A stretch of DNA of 64,000 nt from Marinovum algicola (GTDB taxonomy: Bacteria > Pseudomonadota > Alphaproteobacteria > Rhodobacterales > Rhodobacteraceae). Shown here in pieces: positions 16,723 through 21,823 of this stretch (within the stretch, counting starts at the first letter, position 1; the number at the start of each line of letters is the position of its first letter). The DNA is taken from positions 1-64,000 of the forward strand of contig NZ_FNYY01000016.1 in NCBI RefSeq assembly GCF_900109145.1, given 5' to 3'. A program made the translations under genes and the position numbers. The notes beneath the pieces were generated by a model. The model was not told the origin of the DNA, did not search any database, and saw only the letters and a list, made by a program, of their open reading frames with translations.

Positions 16723-18366
16723 TCAGACCGATTTGACCAACCCGATCGCCCGCAGCCCCGGAACCGGGTATTCCTTGTCGCGGAGGGAATCGATGGTGAA
16801 CTCCGGTTCAAGCCGCCGCAGCCGCCGGATCGCCAGCCGCAGCTCCTCCATGTCACCGCGCGCCGCATGGATCGCGGTGAGATAGCGCAGCGGCGCCCGG
16901 TAAAGCGGCGCCTTCTTCGACGCCCGTTCGGCATAGCGCACCGCATCATCCAGCATCCCGGCGCTGGTGGCGGCGGCACAGCTGAAGGTATCGACCACAT
17001 AGGAATAAAACCCGCCGCCCTGGATGCGCTGGGAATATTCGCTGTCGCGCAGACCGCGCTCGCCATCGCCCTCCAGCGAATAGGCGGCGCCGCGAAACAG
17101 CCAGGCCAGCGGATTGGCACGGTTGATCTCCAGCGCCTGGGTGGCCAGCTCGACGCCGCGCGCCCGGTCGCCCAGGATGAAGGACGAGGTATAGGACACC
17201 AGCGCCAGCGTCATCGAGCCATAGGGATCGAGCTCCAGCGCCTTGCGGCACAGCGCATCGGCGTTTTCCTGCAAGGCGCGCTGGTCGCGAAAGTCCTTCT
17301 CGGCGCGCTCCAGCGTGGTGACATAGGCCAGCCAGGCCAGGTAGATGCCCTTGCGGTGCACTTCGAAGTTGCGCGCCAGCTGGGTCTTGGCCAGCTTGAG
17401 ATCGCCGGGCCGATTGCGAAAGATCAGCCGCACCGCGCCCAGCGTGCCGGCGGCCAGGTAATCATTGGTCGCCGCATCCGCATGGCCCGGCGCCAGATCG
17501 AGCATGGTGCGCTCGACCGTGCGGTTGACCAGCCGCAGCATCTCGGAATCGTCGAGCAGCGCCACCGGATCGGCGGTGATCGCCGCCGACATCGACCATT
17601 TCGGCGCATAGGGTTCCCCCTCCGCAAGCGCCACATGCGCCGCCGCCCGCTCGCCGTTGGCCTCGACCCGGGTCGAGAGCAGATATTGCGCCAGATCCTC
17701 GGGGCCATTGCGCGCCAGCCTGTCGGGATCGTCGGCGATGGCGGCAATGCGCAGCGCGCACCAGTCGCCGATCGAATTGGCGATGCCATGCGTCAGCAGC
17801 CGGTGATGCATCTCGTCGGCCGAGCCGGCGCTGCGGATCTCGACCGGCAGCCGCCGCGCCAGCCGTTCCTGCACGCTGAACTGGCCGCGCATCTGCGCCA
17901 GCCACTCCGACAGCGCGCCGTCGGTGCTCTGGACATCCTCGAGAAAGGGCAGGCCCTGCGCGGTCTTTTCCTGCGCCGCGTCGATATCGGTCTCGACCGC
18001 GCCGGGACGAAAGGCCACCGCCTTGCGGTCGGCCTGAAAGGCGTCGGCGGCGGGGCCAAGCGCGCTGCGGATTTCGCTGATCGCCTGCCGCAGGCTGGCC
18101 AGCGCCTGGGCCTGCGCCCGGTCCGACCACAGGCTCTGCGCCAGATAGGGCCGCGACCGGCACTGATCCGGCGCCATCAGCACCATGGCGACAAGCGCCT
18201 TGGCCTTGGCGCCCTTGGGCGTGCGGTCCGCGCCAGCGGCATCGGTGATGCGGAACGGGCCGAACAAGCCGACGCGCAGCTCTGCCGCCCGCGCAGCCGA
18301 ACCGTCCCCCCCCGGTGTCTGTGCGAGTTCGTTCAAATCACTTGTTCCTCGCGTCGGATTGTTCAA
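16723..18366 (-). CDS. SARP/BTAD-like regulator with TPR-type C-terminus
   Basis: The 547-residue protein has an N-terminal winged-helix domain of the OmpR/SARP kind (ELRVGLFGPFRITDAAGADRTPKGAKAKALVAMVLMAPDQCRSRPYLAQSLWSDRAQAQALASLRQAISEIRSALG, about residues 28-104). A long helical region with TPR-like repeats follows (LCRKALELDPYGSMTLALVSYTSS, QALEINRANPLAWLFRGAAYSLEGD, RYAERASKKAPLYRAPLRYLTAIH). The apparent start is TTG 18366 without a convincing ribosome site, so the N-terminus is uncertain. It is divergent from the phosphatase-peptidase pair, separated by an AT-rich 177-bp region, and probably regulates it. Confidence 0.75.
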   Translation of the reverse strand: MNNPTRGTSDLNELAQTPGGDGSAARAAELRVGLFGPFRITDAAGADRTPKGAKAKALVAMVLMAPDQCRSRPYLAQSLWSDRAQAQALASLRQAISEIRSALGPAADAFQADRKAVAFRPGAVETDIDAAQEKTAQGLPFLEDVQSTDGALSEWLAQMRGQFSVQERLARRLPVEIRSAGSADEMHHRLLTHGIANSIGDWCALRIAAIADDPDRLARNGPEDLAQYLLSTRVEANGERAAAHVALAEGEPYAPKWSMSAAITADPVALLDDSEMLRLVNRTVERTMLDLAPGHADAATNDYLAAGTLGAVRLIFRNRPGDLKLAKTQLARNFEVHRKGIYLAWLAYVTTLERAEKDFRDQRALQENADALCRKALELDPYGSMTLALVSYTSSFILGDRARGVELATQALEINRANPLAWLFRGAAYSLEGDGERGLRDSEYSQRIQGGGFYSYVVDTFSCAAATSAGMLDDAVRYAERASKKAPLYRAPLRYLTAIHAARGDMEELRLAIRRLRRLEPEFTIDSLRDKEYPVPGLRAIGLVKSV

Positions 18367-18543
18367 AAGATATCACAAAACAAGGCGCTTACCCCAGCAA
18401 AAGCGTTAAAAATTCGCAATTCGGGGCCTTGCCCGACCTGCATGGTTGAGAAATTAATCGCATATAAACGAATTCTTAACGGATTCGTTCGCGCGGGCCG
18501 ATCATTTTTTCTACGGCCCAGATAGTCAACCAAGGGAAGAGCC

Positions 18544-19641
18544 ATGTCATTGAACAATATTGGGAATATCGGAAACATCGGGAATATTGGAAACATCGGC
18601 AATATTGGAAACATTGGCAATATCGGCAACATCGGGAATATCGGAAACATAGGCAACATCGGCAATATCGGTCTCGAAGCGGTGCCCGGCGCGGCCTCGG
18701 GCGCGATGATGCTGGCGCGTGACGGGGTGGTTGGCGCCCGTCAACCGGCGGCCCACACTCCCACCCATCTGCCGATGAACAGCCCCGAGAACCTGTTCCG
18801 CTGGGATCCCGGCTCGCGGCAATCGGCGGTCTTCGTCGACACCATGTCGGGCCTCGACGTGGCGTTCGACGCCGCGGCCGAAACCGCCAGCGTCACCGTC
18901 GCCGGCGCCAAGCTGTTTCACACCGACCGGCCGAGCGAGGCCGGGTTCACGGCGCAGGTCGATGACATCAAGGCCGCCGCCGATCTGCGCGGCGACCGGG
19001 CGCCCGAAATCCTTGCCCAGACCACCGATATCCTGTCCTTCCTCGCGATGCCGCTGTCGCTCAACCTTGCGCGGCACAAATGGACCATCGAGCTGTTGCA
19101 GGCGGTGATGCTGCCGGTGGTGGCGGTGGAAAAGGCGCTGAAAAACGGCCTCGCCTGCCGCCGGCCACAGGAATACGACGCCCAGATCCAGCCGATGATC
19201 ACCGCGCCGGCGCATAGCGCCTTTCCCTCTGGTCACGCCACCGAGGCCTTTGCCATCGCCGAGGTGCTGAGCCTGGTTTCCGGCGCCAGCGGCGACCGGG
19301 CCGCCTATGGCGAGCAGATGACGCTTCAGGCCGCGCGCATCGCCCACAACCGCGTGGTTGCCGGCGTGCATTTCCACGTCGACAACATCTGCGGCGCCGC
19401 CCTGGGCCGCAGCCTGGCCCGGATGCTGCTGCACCGCGCCGGCGCGCTCGGCGGCCATCACTGCATCGGCGTCAAGGCGCAGACCGCCGCACTGGCCGGG
19501 GCGAAGCTCTCGCTCGACGATCTCGACGCCGCCTTTTCCGGCGGCACCGCCGATCACTACGACGCCAGCGAGGTCGCCAGCGTCGCCCCCGCGCCGCTGC
19601 TCGCCGCGCTCTTTGCCGCCGCCCAGGACGAATGGACCTGA
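18544..19641 (+). CDS. PAP2/vanadium-haloperoxidase-fold protein with N-terminal NIG repeats
   Basis: The 365-residue protein has all three acid-phosphatase/haloperoxidase motifs: K200-x6-R207-P208, PSGH at 228-231, and R270-x5-H276-x3-D280 (NRVVAGVHFHVD). It is therefore a soluble PAP2-superfamily phosphatase or vanadium-dependent haloperoxidase-like enzyme, with no obvious membrane segments. Residues 5-43 are 13 perfect Asn-Ile-Gly triplets, an unusual extension before the catalytic domain. AAGGGAAGAG precedes the ATG. The next gene, an S8 peptidase, starts 1 nt after the stop, so the two are coupled. The substrate is unknown; the repeat could be a targeting, anchoring or assembly element. 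Confidence 0.82.
   Translation: MSLNNIGNIGNIGNIGNIGNIGNIGNIGNIGNIGNIGNIGNIGLEAVPGAASGAMMLARDGVVGARQPAAHTPTHLPMNSPENLFRWDPGSRQSAVFVDTMSGLDVAFDAAAETASVTVAGAKLFHTDRPSEAGFTAQVDDIKAAADLRGDRAPEILAQTTDILSFLAMPLSLNLARHKWTIELLQAVMLPVVAVEKALKNGLACRRPQEYDAQIQPMITAPAHSAFPSGHATEAFAIAEVLSLVSGASGDRAAYGEQMTLQAARIAHNRVVAGVHFHVDNICGAALGRSLARMLLHRAGALGGHHCIGVKAQTAALAGAKLSLDDLDAAFSGGTADHYDASEVASVAPAPLLAALFAAAQDEWT
18556..18672 (+). repeat. Thirteen in-frame NIG codon triplets
   Basis: A 9-bp unit coding Asn-Ile-Gly occurs 13 times in a row. Codons alternate freely (AAT/AAC, ATT/ATC/ATA, GGG/GGA/GGC/GGT), so the amino-acid pattern rather than the DNA has been held constant. The tract is much more AT-rich than its surroundings. 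Confidence 0.95.
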
Positions 19642-19642
19642 G

Positions 19643-21823
19643 ATGCCCGGCTGGACAGAAACCCCGCTCGACGCGGATGAGGCGCACCGCCATCCCTACG
19701 AGCTCTGGTACGCCAGCCCGCCGGGCGCGGCCGAGATCGGGGCCCCCCGGCCCGACCGCTATTATCCCCAGATCGTCGCGCTCGAGCTCTCGGTCAGCGG
19801 CAAGACGACGCCGCTCGGCGCCTTCCTCTCCCGGGCGCACGCAGCCTGGCAGGCGCTGACCCGGCCGGCCCCCGCCGGGGGCAGCGCGCCCTTTGTCGCC
19901 ACCCCGCATGATGCCGCCTATGCCTTTGCCGCACTAATGCGCGCCATCCACGCCGGCGAGGCGGCCAGAACCGAACTGCTGCTCTTTCTGCGCGGCGACC
20001 TGCTGCAATCGCCGCTCGAACGCCATCTGCCGCGACCGGAAAACGCCGCGCTCGCCGTCACCTCGGCGCAGATCCTGCGCGGCGACACCGGGCTGACCCC
20101 GGTGCGCGGCTGCCTGCCGCCCGAGGGCTCCGACACCGCCCTGCTCGCCCCGCTCGAAACCGCGCTGACCGCGGGCACCGCCCTGCCTCCGCGCCCGTCC
20201 GAGGCGCCGCCGGTCGGCGTCGTCATCGATCACGCCATCGGTTTCGCCAATCAGGTGTTCCGCCGCCGCACCCCGAAAACCGCCAGCCTGCGCAGCCGCT
20301 TCATCCGGTTCTGGGCCCAGGGCGACGGGCTGGACGACAGCCCCGGCATCGGCACCGCGCTTGACGCTGCCCGGATCAACCGCGCCCTGCACGAACTGAC
20401 AGACAGCCCCTATCGCACCGAAGCCGACCTGTACGAACGCCTCGGCCTCGCCGCCGACGGCCCCGATCACCACCACCTGAAGAAACGCGCCTCGCATGGC
20501 ACGGCGGTCGGGCATGTGGCCTTTGGCACCGATCCCGATGCCCCCGAGGCCGGCCTTGACGGCGTCGATCTGATGGGCATCCAGCTTCCCGCCGCCTCGG
20601 TCGCGCGCACCAACGGCCACCTGCACGATCTCTACGTGATCTCCGGGCTCAACTGGCTCTGGTATCACCGGCTGCAAGAGGCGATCGCCGGCCGCCCGGC
20701 GCCGGATTACCTTGTCACCCATTCGTTCGGCACCTTTGCCGGGCGCCATGACGGCCTTGACGGGCTCAGCGCCGAGTTCGACCGCAGGCTCGACGCCGGC
20801 GAGATCCGCGCCGTCGCCGCCGCCGCCGGCAACAGCCTGCAAAGCGCCACCCACGCAAGGCTCACCGCCGCCGACCTCGCCGACAGCGCGAAATGCGACA
20901 TCGGCCTTGCCATCCAGCCCGACGACCGCAGCGCCAGTTTCGTGCAGCTCTGGAGCGACCTGGCGGCGCCCGCCGGGGGGTCGGGCTTTCCGGTCGGCCT
21001 CTCGCTCACCCTGCCCGACGGCACCAGGCTGGACCCGCCACAGGGCGGCTTCCGCCCCGGTCATGCCTATGATTACGCCATGCGCGGCCAGACCGTGGCC
21101 CGGCTCTACTGCCAGCGCAGCCTGCCGCGCGCCGTGCCGGGCGCCCAGGGCCACGAACGCCGCAGGCTCACCCTGGCCATCCCCGCCACCGCCGATGGCC
21201 AGGGCCGGCCCGGCACCGCGCCCGAAGGCCTCTGGCGCCTGCGCCTCGGCCCGGCCGAACAGGGGTTCGCCGATCAGGTCGCCCTCTGGGTCGAACGCGG
21301 CGAAACCCCCGAGGGCTTTGCCCCCGCCGGCCGCCAGGCCTATCTCGAACACCCGGCCTATCTGCGCTTTGACGCCGAGGGCCGCCGCCCCGCCGGCGAC
21401 ACCGGGACCGCGCCGATCAAACGCTTCGGCACGCTTTCGGCCGCCGCCGGCTCGCGCGGGGTCATCACCGCCGGCTCCTGCCGCGCGTCCGATGCCAGCG
21501 TCTCGGCGTTTTCCTCGGCCAGCGCCGGGCCCGATCCAGCGCAACCCACCTGCGCCGCCGTGTCGGAAGCCAGCGACATCCGGCCCGACATCCTGGTCAC
21601 CGGCACCTACAGCGGCAGCACGGTCGCGGTTCGCGGCACCAGCTTCGCCGCGCCCTTCGCGCTCAGAACCGCGCTGGCCAGGCTGCTCACCGGCGCCCCC
21701 GGCACCCCGCGCGAGATCCTGACCCGGAGCCTCGCGCCGTCGGAGGCCGATCCCCGCCACATCGGCCAGGGCCGGGTTCCCGGCATGTTCAGCCCGACGC
21801 CCGACAGGTTCACCCGCCGCTAG
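19643..21823 (+). CDS. S8 (subtilase) family serine peptidase
   Basis: The 726-residue protein carries a complete subtilisin-like triad: Asp196 in GVVIDHAIGFANQ, His285 in RASHGTAVGHVAFG, Ser667 in VRGTSFAAPFALR. Nearly 380 residues separate His and Ser, against roughly 150-160 in subtilisin, so the domain contains large insertions. About 190 residues precede the Asp. No signal peptide is visible. The start at ATG 19643 follows the phosphatase stop by 1 nt. Pairing with the NIG-repeat protein suggests that the peptidase processes or regulates it or a shared target; this is inference. Confidence 0.85.
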   Translation: MPGWTETPLDADEAHRHPYELWYASPPGAAEIGAPRPDRYYPQIVALELSVSGKTTPLGAFLSRAHAAWQALTRPAPAGGSAPFVATPHDAAYAFAALMRAIHAGEAARTELLLFLRGDLLQSPLERHLPRPENAALAVTSAQILRGDTGLTPVRGCLPPEGSDTALLAPLETALTAGTALPPRPSEAPPVGVVIDHAIGFANQVFRRRTPKTASLRSRFIRFWAQGDGLDDSPGIGTALDAARINRALHELTDSPYRTEADLYERLGLAADGPDHHHLKKRASHGTAVGHVAFGTDPDAPEAGLDGVDLMGIQLPAASVARTNGHLHDLYVISGLNWLWYHRLQEAIAGRPAPDYLVTHSFGTFAGRHDGLDGLSAEFDRRLDAGEIRAVAAAAGNSLQSATHARLTAADLADSAKCDIGLAIQPDDRSASFVQLWSDLAAPAGGSGFPVGLSLTLPDGTRLDPPQGGFRPGHAYDYAMRGQTVARLYCQRSLPRAVPGAQGHERRRLTLAIPATADGQGRPGTAPEGLWRLRLGPAEQGFADQVALWVERGETPEGFAPAGRQAYLEHPAYLRFDAEGRRPAGDTGTAPIKRFGTLSAAAGSRGVITAGSCRASDASVSAFSSASAGPDPAQPTCAAVSEASDIRPDILVTGTYSGSTVAVRGTSFAAPFALRTALARLLTGAPGTPREILTRSLAPSEADPRHIGQGRVPGMFSPTPDRFTRR

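Follow-up and report, generated by a model that had tools for sequence, protein, structure and literature searches.

We analysed a 64,000-nucleotide stretch of Marinovum algicola DNA (contig NZ_FNYY01000016.1, positions 1 to 64,000; hereafter the window), in which three genes stand together: an enzyme of the PAP2 fold whose N-terminal tail is made of repeated Asn-Ile-Gly (NIG) triplets, an S8 family subtilase, and a divergently oriented tetratricopeptide repeat (TPR) regulator. These genes form a linked system, and the conserved trait of the enzyme's tail is near-perfect short tandem repetition, with a unit that varies between most lineages. Purifying selection keeps the copies within a gene identical at the protein level, and the unit is replaced rapidly between genes. 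We tentatively propose that the tail presents many identical recognition sites to the subtilase and the TPR protein.

The window enzyme begins with MSLN, followed by the 13 perfect NIG triplets that the initial annotation had noted. They are written in nine DNA sequences whose every difference is silent, and with nine distinct units among 13 the array is therefore not a fresh DNA duplication. At a stringency of three units, no second copy of the array was found elsewhere in its own genome. The initial annotation had staked its proposal on the repeat being present in close relatives, and it is. Among 251 distinct open reading frames (ORFs) matching the PAP2 profile, 15 at or below 150 bits were set aside; the 236 above 150 bits correspond to 225 genes once pieces are merged, and 216 of these carry an array. 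The nine genes in which no array passed our filter comprise four with degenerate or six-residue repeats (L265, L283, L310, L322), one whose NVS array can be read before the frame is lost (L158), a broken gene with an NSF array upstream of the called piece (L250), one that begins at a contig end (L190), a short ORF (L025) and one gene without an array (L276). Weaker PAP2-profile matches, at 60-92 bits, had no array in ten of 11 cases and a short one in the eleventh (GGNWF three times, L150). The difference between 216 of 225 and one of 11 indicates that the array is not a matter of chance. The 218 array-bearing ORFs use 113 distinct cyclic units in 3-20 copies, with periods of two (15 ORFs), three (173), four (27) or five (3) residues; examples are NIG, GGL, NSF, SAY, TAM, GVH, SGD, GQ and SR. 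Thus, of the NIG repeat as a conserved feature, the repetition has held up and the unit has not.

This diversity bears on the earlier suggestion that the repeat mediates self-assembly. Tails of the same kind could associate into oligomers or condensates, with divergence of the unit separating the assemblies of different species. That arrays are uniform within a gene but diverge between species would fit such self-recognition, as would the weak match of the window array to the Pfam Collagen profile (20 bits, below the cut-off of 27.2). Yet the units, which may be helix-prone, charged, aromatic or Gly-rich, share no structural class at periods of two to five, and many relatives depart from the collagen pattern altogether, having units without Gly or of period 2, 4 or 5. 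We rejected collagen-like and amyloid-like single-fold explanations because of this diversity: one shared fold is unlikely as the common function of units ranging from GGA and GS to EAV, TAM, TGW, GHE, SR and TPH. Self-recognition would also leave the constant protease and TPR partners unexplained, and we regard it as improbable.

Within genes, the arrays are strikingly uniform in protein. Only 27 of 2047 units are imperfect, spread over 26 of 214 DNA-distinct arrays (extended across single interruptions), and between neighbouring units of these 214 arrays there are 4216 silent changes but 162 replacement changes, with a pN/pS of 0.014. The 218-ORF and 214-array sets begin from perfect runs, which favours perfect arrays. 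When periodic segments were instead detected without demanding perfection, one was found in 220 of the 225 genes; 198 of the 220 were fully perfect, and 5656 of 5699 lag comparisons were equal. After recent duplication the silent sites would still agree, and gene conversion would have removed silent differences as well, so selection remains as the explanation. Codons are shared between neighbouring units less frequently than chance predicts (1459 of 5211, against 1904 expected, standard deviation 30). We rejected this codon scrambling as the mark of a special process, since 16 other arrays from the fetched loci, some of them one stretch of DNA read on both strands, show it too (424 of 1029 against 531, standard deviation 12), and we regard it as something that long-lived protein repeats generally show. 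Third-position GC content is lower in the arrays than in the gene body (0.575 against 0.727); a drop at the 5' end also occurs in the S8 genes (0.637 against 0.700) and the regulator genes (0.626 against 0.705), so that the drop in the arrays is partly a 5'-end effect. Sensing of amino-acid starvation through repeated codons was rejected, because synonymous codons are mixed within the array. The low-complexity composition of the tail, its N-terminal position and its disorder in the structure model might suggest a neutral linker kept uniform as a side effect of how repeats mutate, and the codon scrambling, being nothing special in itself, would agree. However, a neutral linker would decay, which is at odds with the pN/pS between neighbouring units and with the presence of an array in nearly every family gene; we consider this explanation highly unlikely.

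Between genes, turnover of the unit is fast. A tree of 207 repeat-free domains, carrying 108 units among them, calls for at least 129 changes of unit and 11 of period (L224 was left out of the tree, and L231, which has masked letters, out of both the tree and the covariation tests described below). All 25 pairs above 0.9 enzyme identity have the same unit, as do 8 of 138 pairs at 0.50-0.55 and 83 of 11,991 at 0.20-0.45. In the 20 differing pairs above 0.7 identity, one residue is swapped through the whole array (GGV/GGI, SGGL/SGGA/SGGV/SGGI, SSD/SGD, GGS/GGT), and two GGI arrays (L202, L208) contain one GGV unit each, as in a transition from one unit to the other. Copy number varies as well: NSF is present in 5-7 copies among nine Phaeobacter plasmids of three species, with only silent differences within the array. 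To our knowledge, identical copies within a gene combined with a motif that is replaced between species have few parallels. The Plasmodium circumsporozoite protein and other species-specific tandem-repeat proteins also have repeats that are uniform within a gene and a unit that differs between species, but the circumsporozoite protein is a surface antigen under host immune pressure, whereas the PAP2 enzyme is apparently intracellular. The enzyme that shows this behaviour here is widespread, its catalytic residues are conserved, and both its partners are constant.

Searches of 101 related genomes with the window proteins at E 0.001 found the enzyme in 28 (some of these being repeat-only or ordinary PAP2 matches), the subtilase in 13 and the regulator in 38. 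A profile of 24 repeat-free enzyme domains, at E 1e-8, matched 146 of the 394 family genomes and 96 of 398 drawn from the phylum, the weaker matches including ordinary PAP2 proteins. The best 80 of 576 loci in named genomes include Rhodobacteraceae, Methylobacterium, Microvirga, Bradyrhizobium, Variovorax, Hydrogenophaga and Polaromonas; both partners are present for 78 of the 81 family ORFs in these 80 loci, and the remaining three, which have no regulator, start at most 160 bases from a contig end. Linkage was then counted for the 143 of 218 array ORFs with at least 4.5 kb of flank on each side. A gene matching the regulator profile lies nearby in 143 of 143, and a subtilase gene likewise in 143 of 143: 130 of the CspB-like type found in the window, 10 of a second subfamily (scoring 345-611 bits against a profile made from eight of its members) and 3 of a third. 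Three of three tested members of the second subfamily, and three of three of the third, match PF00082. We had considered that 13 of the 143 arrays might have no subtilase, leaving the TPR protein as the sole constant partner, and rejected this because those loci hold the divergent subtilases. Thus, homologues of the enzyme and the peptidase do not occur apart at these loci, as they would if the initial annotation had been mistaken in pairing them. There is no common fourth gene, the top neighbour family occurring in 13 of 149 loci.

The enzyme belongs to the PAP2 / vanadium haloperoxidase superfamily, judging from its match to PF01569 (48.8 bits against a cut-off of 27.2) and its motifs. The motifs of this superfamily are K-x6-RP, PSGH and R-x5-H-x3-D. 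All three are found: K200, R207, P228, H231, R270, H276 and D280 are invariant in a 60-sequence alignment, and P208, S229 and G230 are present in at least 90% of the sequences. The structure model has a predicted local distance difference test score (pLDDT) of 88, with only residues 1-44, which hold the array, below 50, so the array-bearing tail is predicted to be disordered. The nearest solved folds are class A acid phosphatases (7f17).

The subtilase matches PF00082 at 31.7 bits (cut-off 21.8). Numbered from 19652, in a 723-residue stretch that begins three residues short of the natural start, D193, H282, N394 and S664 are invariant in 53 sequences; by motif reading, D193, H282 and S664 would be the catalytic triad and N394 the oxyanion Asn. 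This bears out the earlier description of an intact but widely spaced triad: in the structure model, a beta-rich stretch separating N394 from S664 accounts for the spacing. That model is confident, and its best Foldseek match is CspB (4i0w; E 4.9e-20, template modelling score 0.71 on the target); the best profile match to Csp chains is 2.4e-30. The insert between Asn and Ser and the fold are those of a Csp-type subtilase, which does not imply a role in spore germination. CspB of Clostridium is a subtilase with a jellyroll insert, and CspB-type subtilases are required for efficient processing of the zymogen pro-SleC, a hydrolase of a neighbouring pathway whose N-terminal propeptide is removed (PMC3567191, available in part). 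This system differs from the trio in acting in spore germination, its propeptide is not a repeat array, and a TPR partner is not described in the available part of that source. Within the trio family, subtilase subfamily appears to go with array type, which is suggestive: units beside the second subfamily contain Lys or Arg at 10 of 10 loci, and 11 of 15 period-2 arrays lie beside it. By eye, 9 of 12 second-subfamily sequences have an acidic residue that might suit basic units, a lead that rests on a comparison with furin.

The third protein was described as a large, divergent regulator combining SARP (Streptomyces antibiotic regulatory protein) and TPR parts. Its divergent orientation is confirmed, and Pfam gives sub-threshold TPR matches only, with nothing at E 0.01; the SARP label is not borne out for the window protein. 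Among 68 scanned regulators, 48 match the commonest TPR family, 21 match Guanylate_cyc (a nucleotidyl-cyclase domain) and 11 match Trans_reg_C (a winged helix), and neither BTAD nor HTH_3 is among the 25 families shown. With TPR families common and outputs varying, it is the TPR part that stays constant and the output domain that is exchanged. On these domain matches, the name TPR protein with an exchangeable output domain suits the regulator better than SARP. Regulator paralogues also occur with no enzyme, subtilase or array nearby (L088 on contig C35 of the same genome, L089 and L333-L352), so the regulator family is broader than the trio system. No array was found in 23 scanned loci that have a regulator paralogue and no enzyme, and the neighbours of L088 and L089 look by eye like catabolic genes.

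A partner that reads the unit should covary with it beyond shared ancestry, and for this reason we permuted units within clades (300 permutations each, six whole-set settings, 135 representatives or, in one setting, 148). An early feature-based test was dropped, as its control for ancestry was too coarse. For the TPR region (mean z 0.14-0.49), the observed value was reached by 1, 14, 0, 1, 0 and 0 of 300 permutations, and by 0 of 300 in the subset with divergent genes. The corresponding counts were 148, 266, 81, 279, 137 and 52 for the DNA-binding part of the regulator, 29, 116, 0, 76, 20 and 0 for the catalytic part of the subtilase, and 17, 30, 0, 81, 21 and 7 for the enzyme body. Covariation thus weakly favours the TPR protein as the reader. 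The unit itself is no commoner within the partner proteins than within shuffled partners (4 against 8.8 in the S8 proteins, 1 against 2.8 in the regulators).

These counts also bear on whether the tail could be a propeptide or timer for the subtilase only, in which the number of cleavage sites sets the delay of activation and the TPR protein is a mere operon regulator. The N-terminal position of the tail, the constant linkage of the subtilase, the variation in copy number and the Csp precedent (PMC3567191, available in part) are all consistent with a timer. However, covariation between subtilase and unit is inconsistent across settings, and the cyclase domains of 21 of the 68 regulators argue that the TPR protein is not simply an operon regulator. 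A timer of this kind seems to us rather unlikely.

How could the trio work? We tentatively favour, with somewhat less than even confidence, a small post-translational control system. The disordered N-terminal tail would carry many identical copies of one short motif as docking or cleavage sites. The dedicated subtilase, probably intracellular, would cut in or at the tail, and the TPR protein would read the tail or its fragments and respond through a DNA-binding or cyclase output; cutting or release would switch the activity or place of the enzyme, or the output of the sensor. Since one pocket would have to fit every copy, the copies would have to match, and the unit would be free to drift because its sole readers drift along in the same genome. 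Consistent with such a recognition tail are the presence of both partners at all 143 loci, with no other common neighbour family, the near-perfect identity of the copies, the pairing of subtilase subfamily with array type, the covariation of the TPR region with the unit, and the varying output domain beside a TPR part that stays; the processing of pro-SleC that requires CspB-type subtilases (PMC3567191) is a precedent. The idea of a tail that the protease would handle, which the initial annotation had raised, is still among the leading ones, but the TPR protein is just as constant in its presence. The cutting, the docking, the direction of control and the substrate of the enzyme are what we infer. 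A bolder form of this proposal, which we find doubtful, is a private code: the subtilase would present or release identical peptides from the tail, re-invented between lineages, and a TPR sensor evolving along with them, its output exchangeable, would read them one unit at a time.

Several points weigh against a recognition tail. Cleavage and binding of the tail are themselves proposals. The TPR region contains no regular repeat that would match the array, and its covariation drops at the strictest clade cut (14 of 300) and is absent in the same-strand subset (67 of 300). In some settings, columns of the subtilase and of the enzyme covary too; the pocket columns of the subtilase show no significant enrichment (p 0.075 and p 0.29 in two tests), and the association of subtilase subfamily with array type may reflect shared ancestry.

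The array could also be a multi-copy precursor from which the subtilase frees identical peptides, with the TPR protein as receptor and the enzyme as carrier, a Gram-negative analogue of tandem pheromone propeptides. RRNPPA receptors are TPR proteins, and subtilisin-like proteases mature the propeptides. RRNPPA precursors hold several short-peptide copies, as the trio's array does, and undergo protease processing, the tandem propeptides being matured by extracellular proteases (PMC11343458, available in part). Such a signal would account for units that are arbitrary yet internally identical, for the variable copy number of NSF, and for the linkage of a protease as well as of a TPR protein whose output domain binds DNA or is a cyclase. 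In contrast, RRNPPA systems are found in Bacillota and use small secreted propeptides, whereas the array here is part of a 365-residue enzyme with conserved catalytic residues, the regulators have other output domains, signal peptides were not seen by eye in any of the three window proteins, and no exporter or importer family is linked among the neighbour families of 149 loci. A private peptide signal is therefore, in our judgement, quite unlikely. A precedent for a recognition tail comes from designed repeat proteins, which bind di- and tripeptide repeat peptides one unit per protein repeat, in orthogonal pairs (PMC10115654, available in part); these are artificial, and the natural TPR region of the trio is not a regular array.

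Each of the three proteins falls in a known superfamily, and the system and its repeat behaviour fit no known kind that we tested. For example, PADLOC-DB yielded no family for the three window proteins at E 0.1, which gives no sign of anti-phage defence, and NCBIfam gave no match above its cut-offs. Searches of the open literature, which takes in few subscription journals, turned up no account of the trio or of a PAP2 tail like this one. Plasmid records name the proteins only by family, as phosphatase PAP2 family protein, S8 family serine peptidase, and winged helix-turn-helix or tetratricopeptide repeat protein. If the private code is real, Gram-negative bacteria would have a new class of self-specific peptide signalling or enzyme addressing. 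Reading of the tail one unit at a time would give these proteins a function; the family would then also offer a natural setting in which to study how repeat motifs diversify together with whatever reads them, and about a hundred different sets of tag, protease and reader ready for use.

The features of the window locus are collected in Table 1. The subtilase gene directly follows the enzyme gene, as had been stated: its natural start, an ATG at 19643, is one base past the PAP2 stop (TGA, 19639-19641). The start codons of the regulator and the enzyme are 177 bp apart in divergent orientation, and the region between them is likely the promoter region, judging by position.

Table 1. Coordinates of the three genes and associated features in the window
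Feature	Coordinates	Strand	Remarks
TPR regulator gene, divergent	16723..18366	-	547 aa, TTG start; weak TPR matches
Intergenic region, regulator/enzyme	18367..18543	.	177 bp; from coordinates of flanking ORFs
PAP2-fold enzyme gene	18544..19641	+	365 aa, N-terminal repeat tail; acid phosphatase / vanadium haloperoxidase superfamily; Pfam PF01569
NIG array, 13 perfect triplets	18556..18672	+	Inside PAP2-fold ORF; 9 distinct DNA units
S8 subtilase gene, CspB-like architecture	19643..21823	+	Pfam PF00082; Foldseek best match CspB 4i0w

Some loci of the family have further features. An ORF family of animal-type heme peroxidases (representative L312:8828-10588, PF03098) is found close to the trio at 10 of 149 loci, possibly a second peroxidase activity beside the PAP2 enzyme. 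The regulator and subtilase are both split into pieces on a plasmid of Phaeobacter inhibens M647 (L239), as are the enzyme and subtilase on a Parasedimentitalea marina plasmid (L250); the trio is decaying there, as if its genes were being lost together. Runs of small hypothetical genes lie downstream of the trio on three Rhodobacterales plasmids (L238, L250, L251); of five of their products compared with Pfam, one had a weak sub-threshold match and four had none. Other proteins unrelated to the trio (L085, L086, L087, L294) have long perfect short repeats (PTD, DPTDGT, DPV) of up to 119 copies with scrambled codons. Finally, tandem repeats coding for Gly and Ser, with periods of 54 bp and shorter, occupy positions 1-248 at the start of the window.

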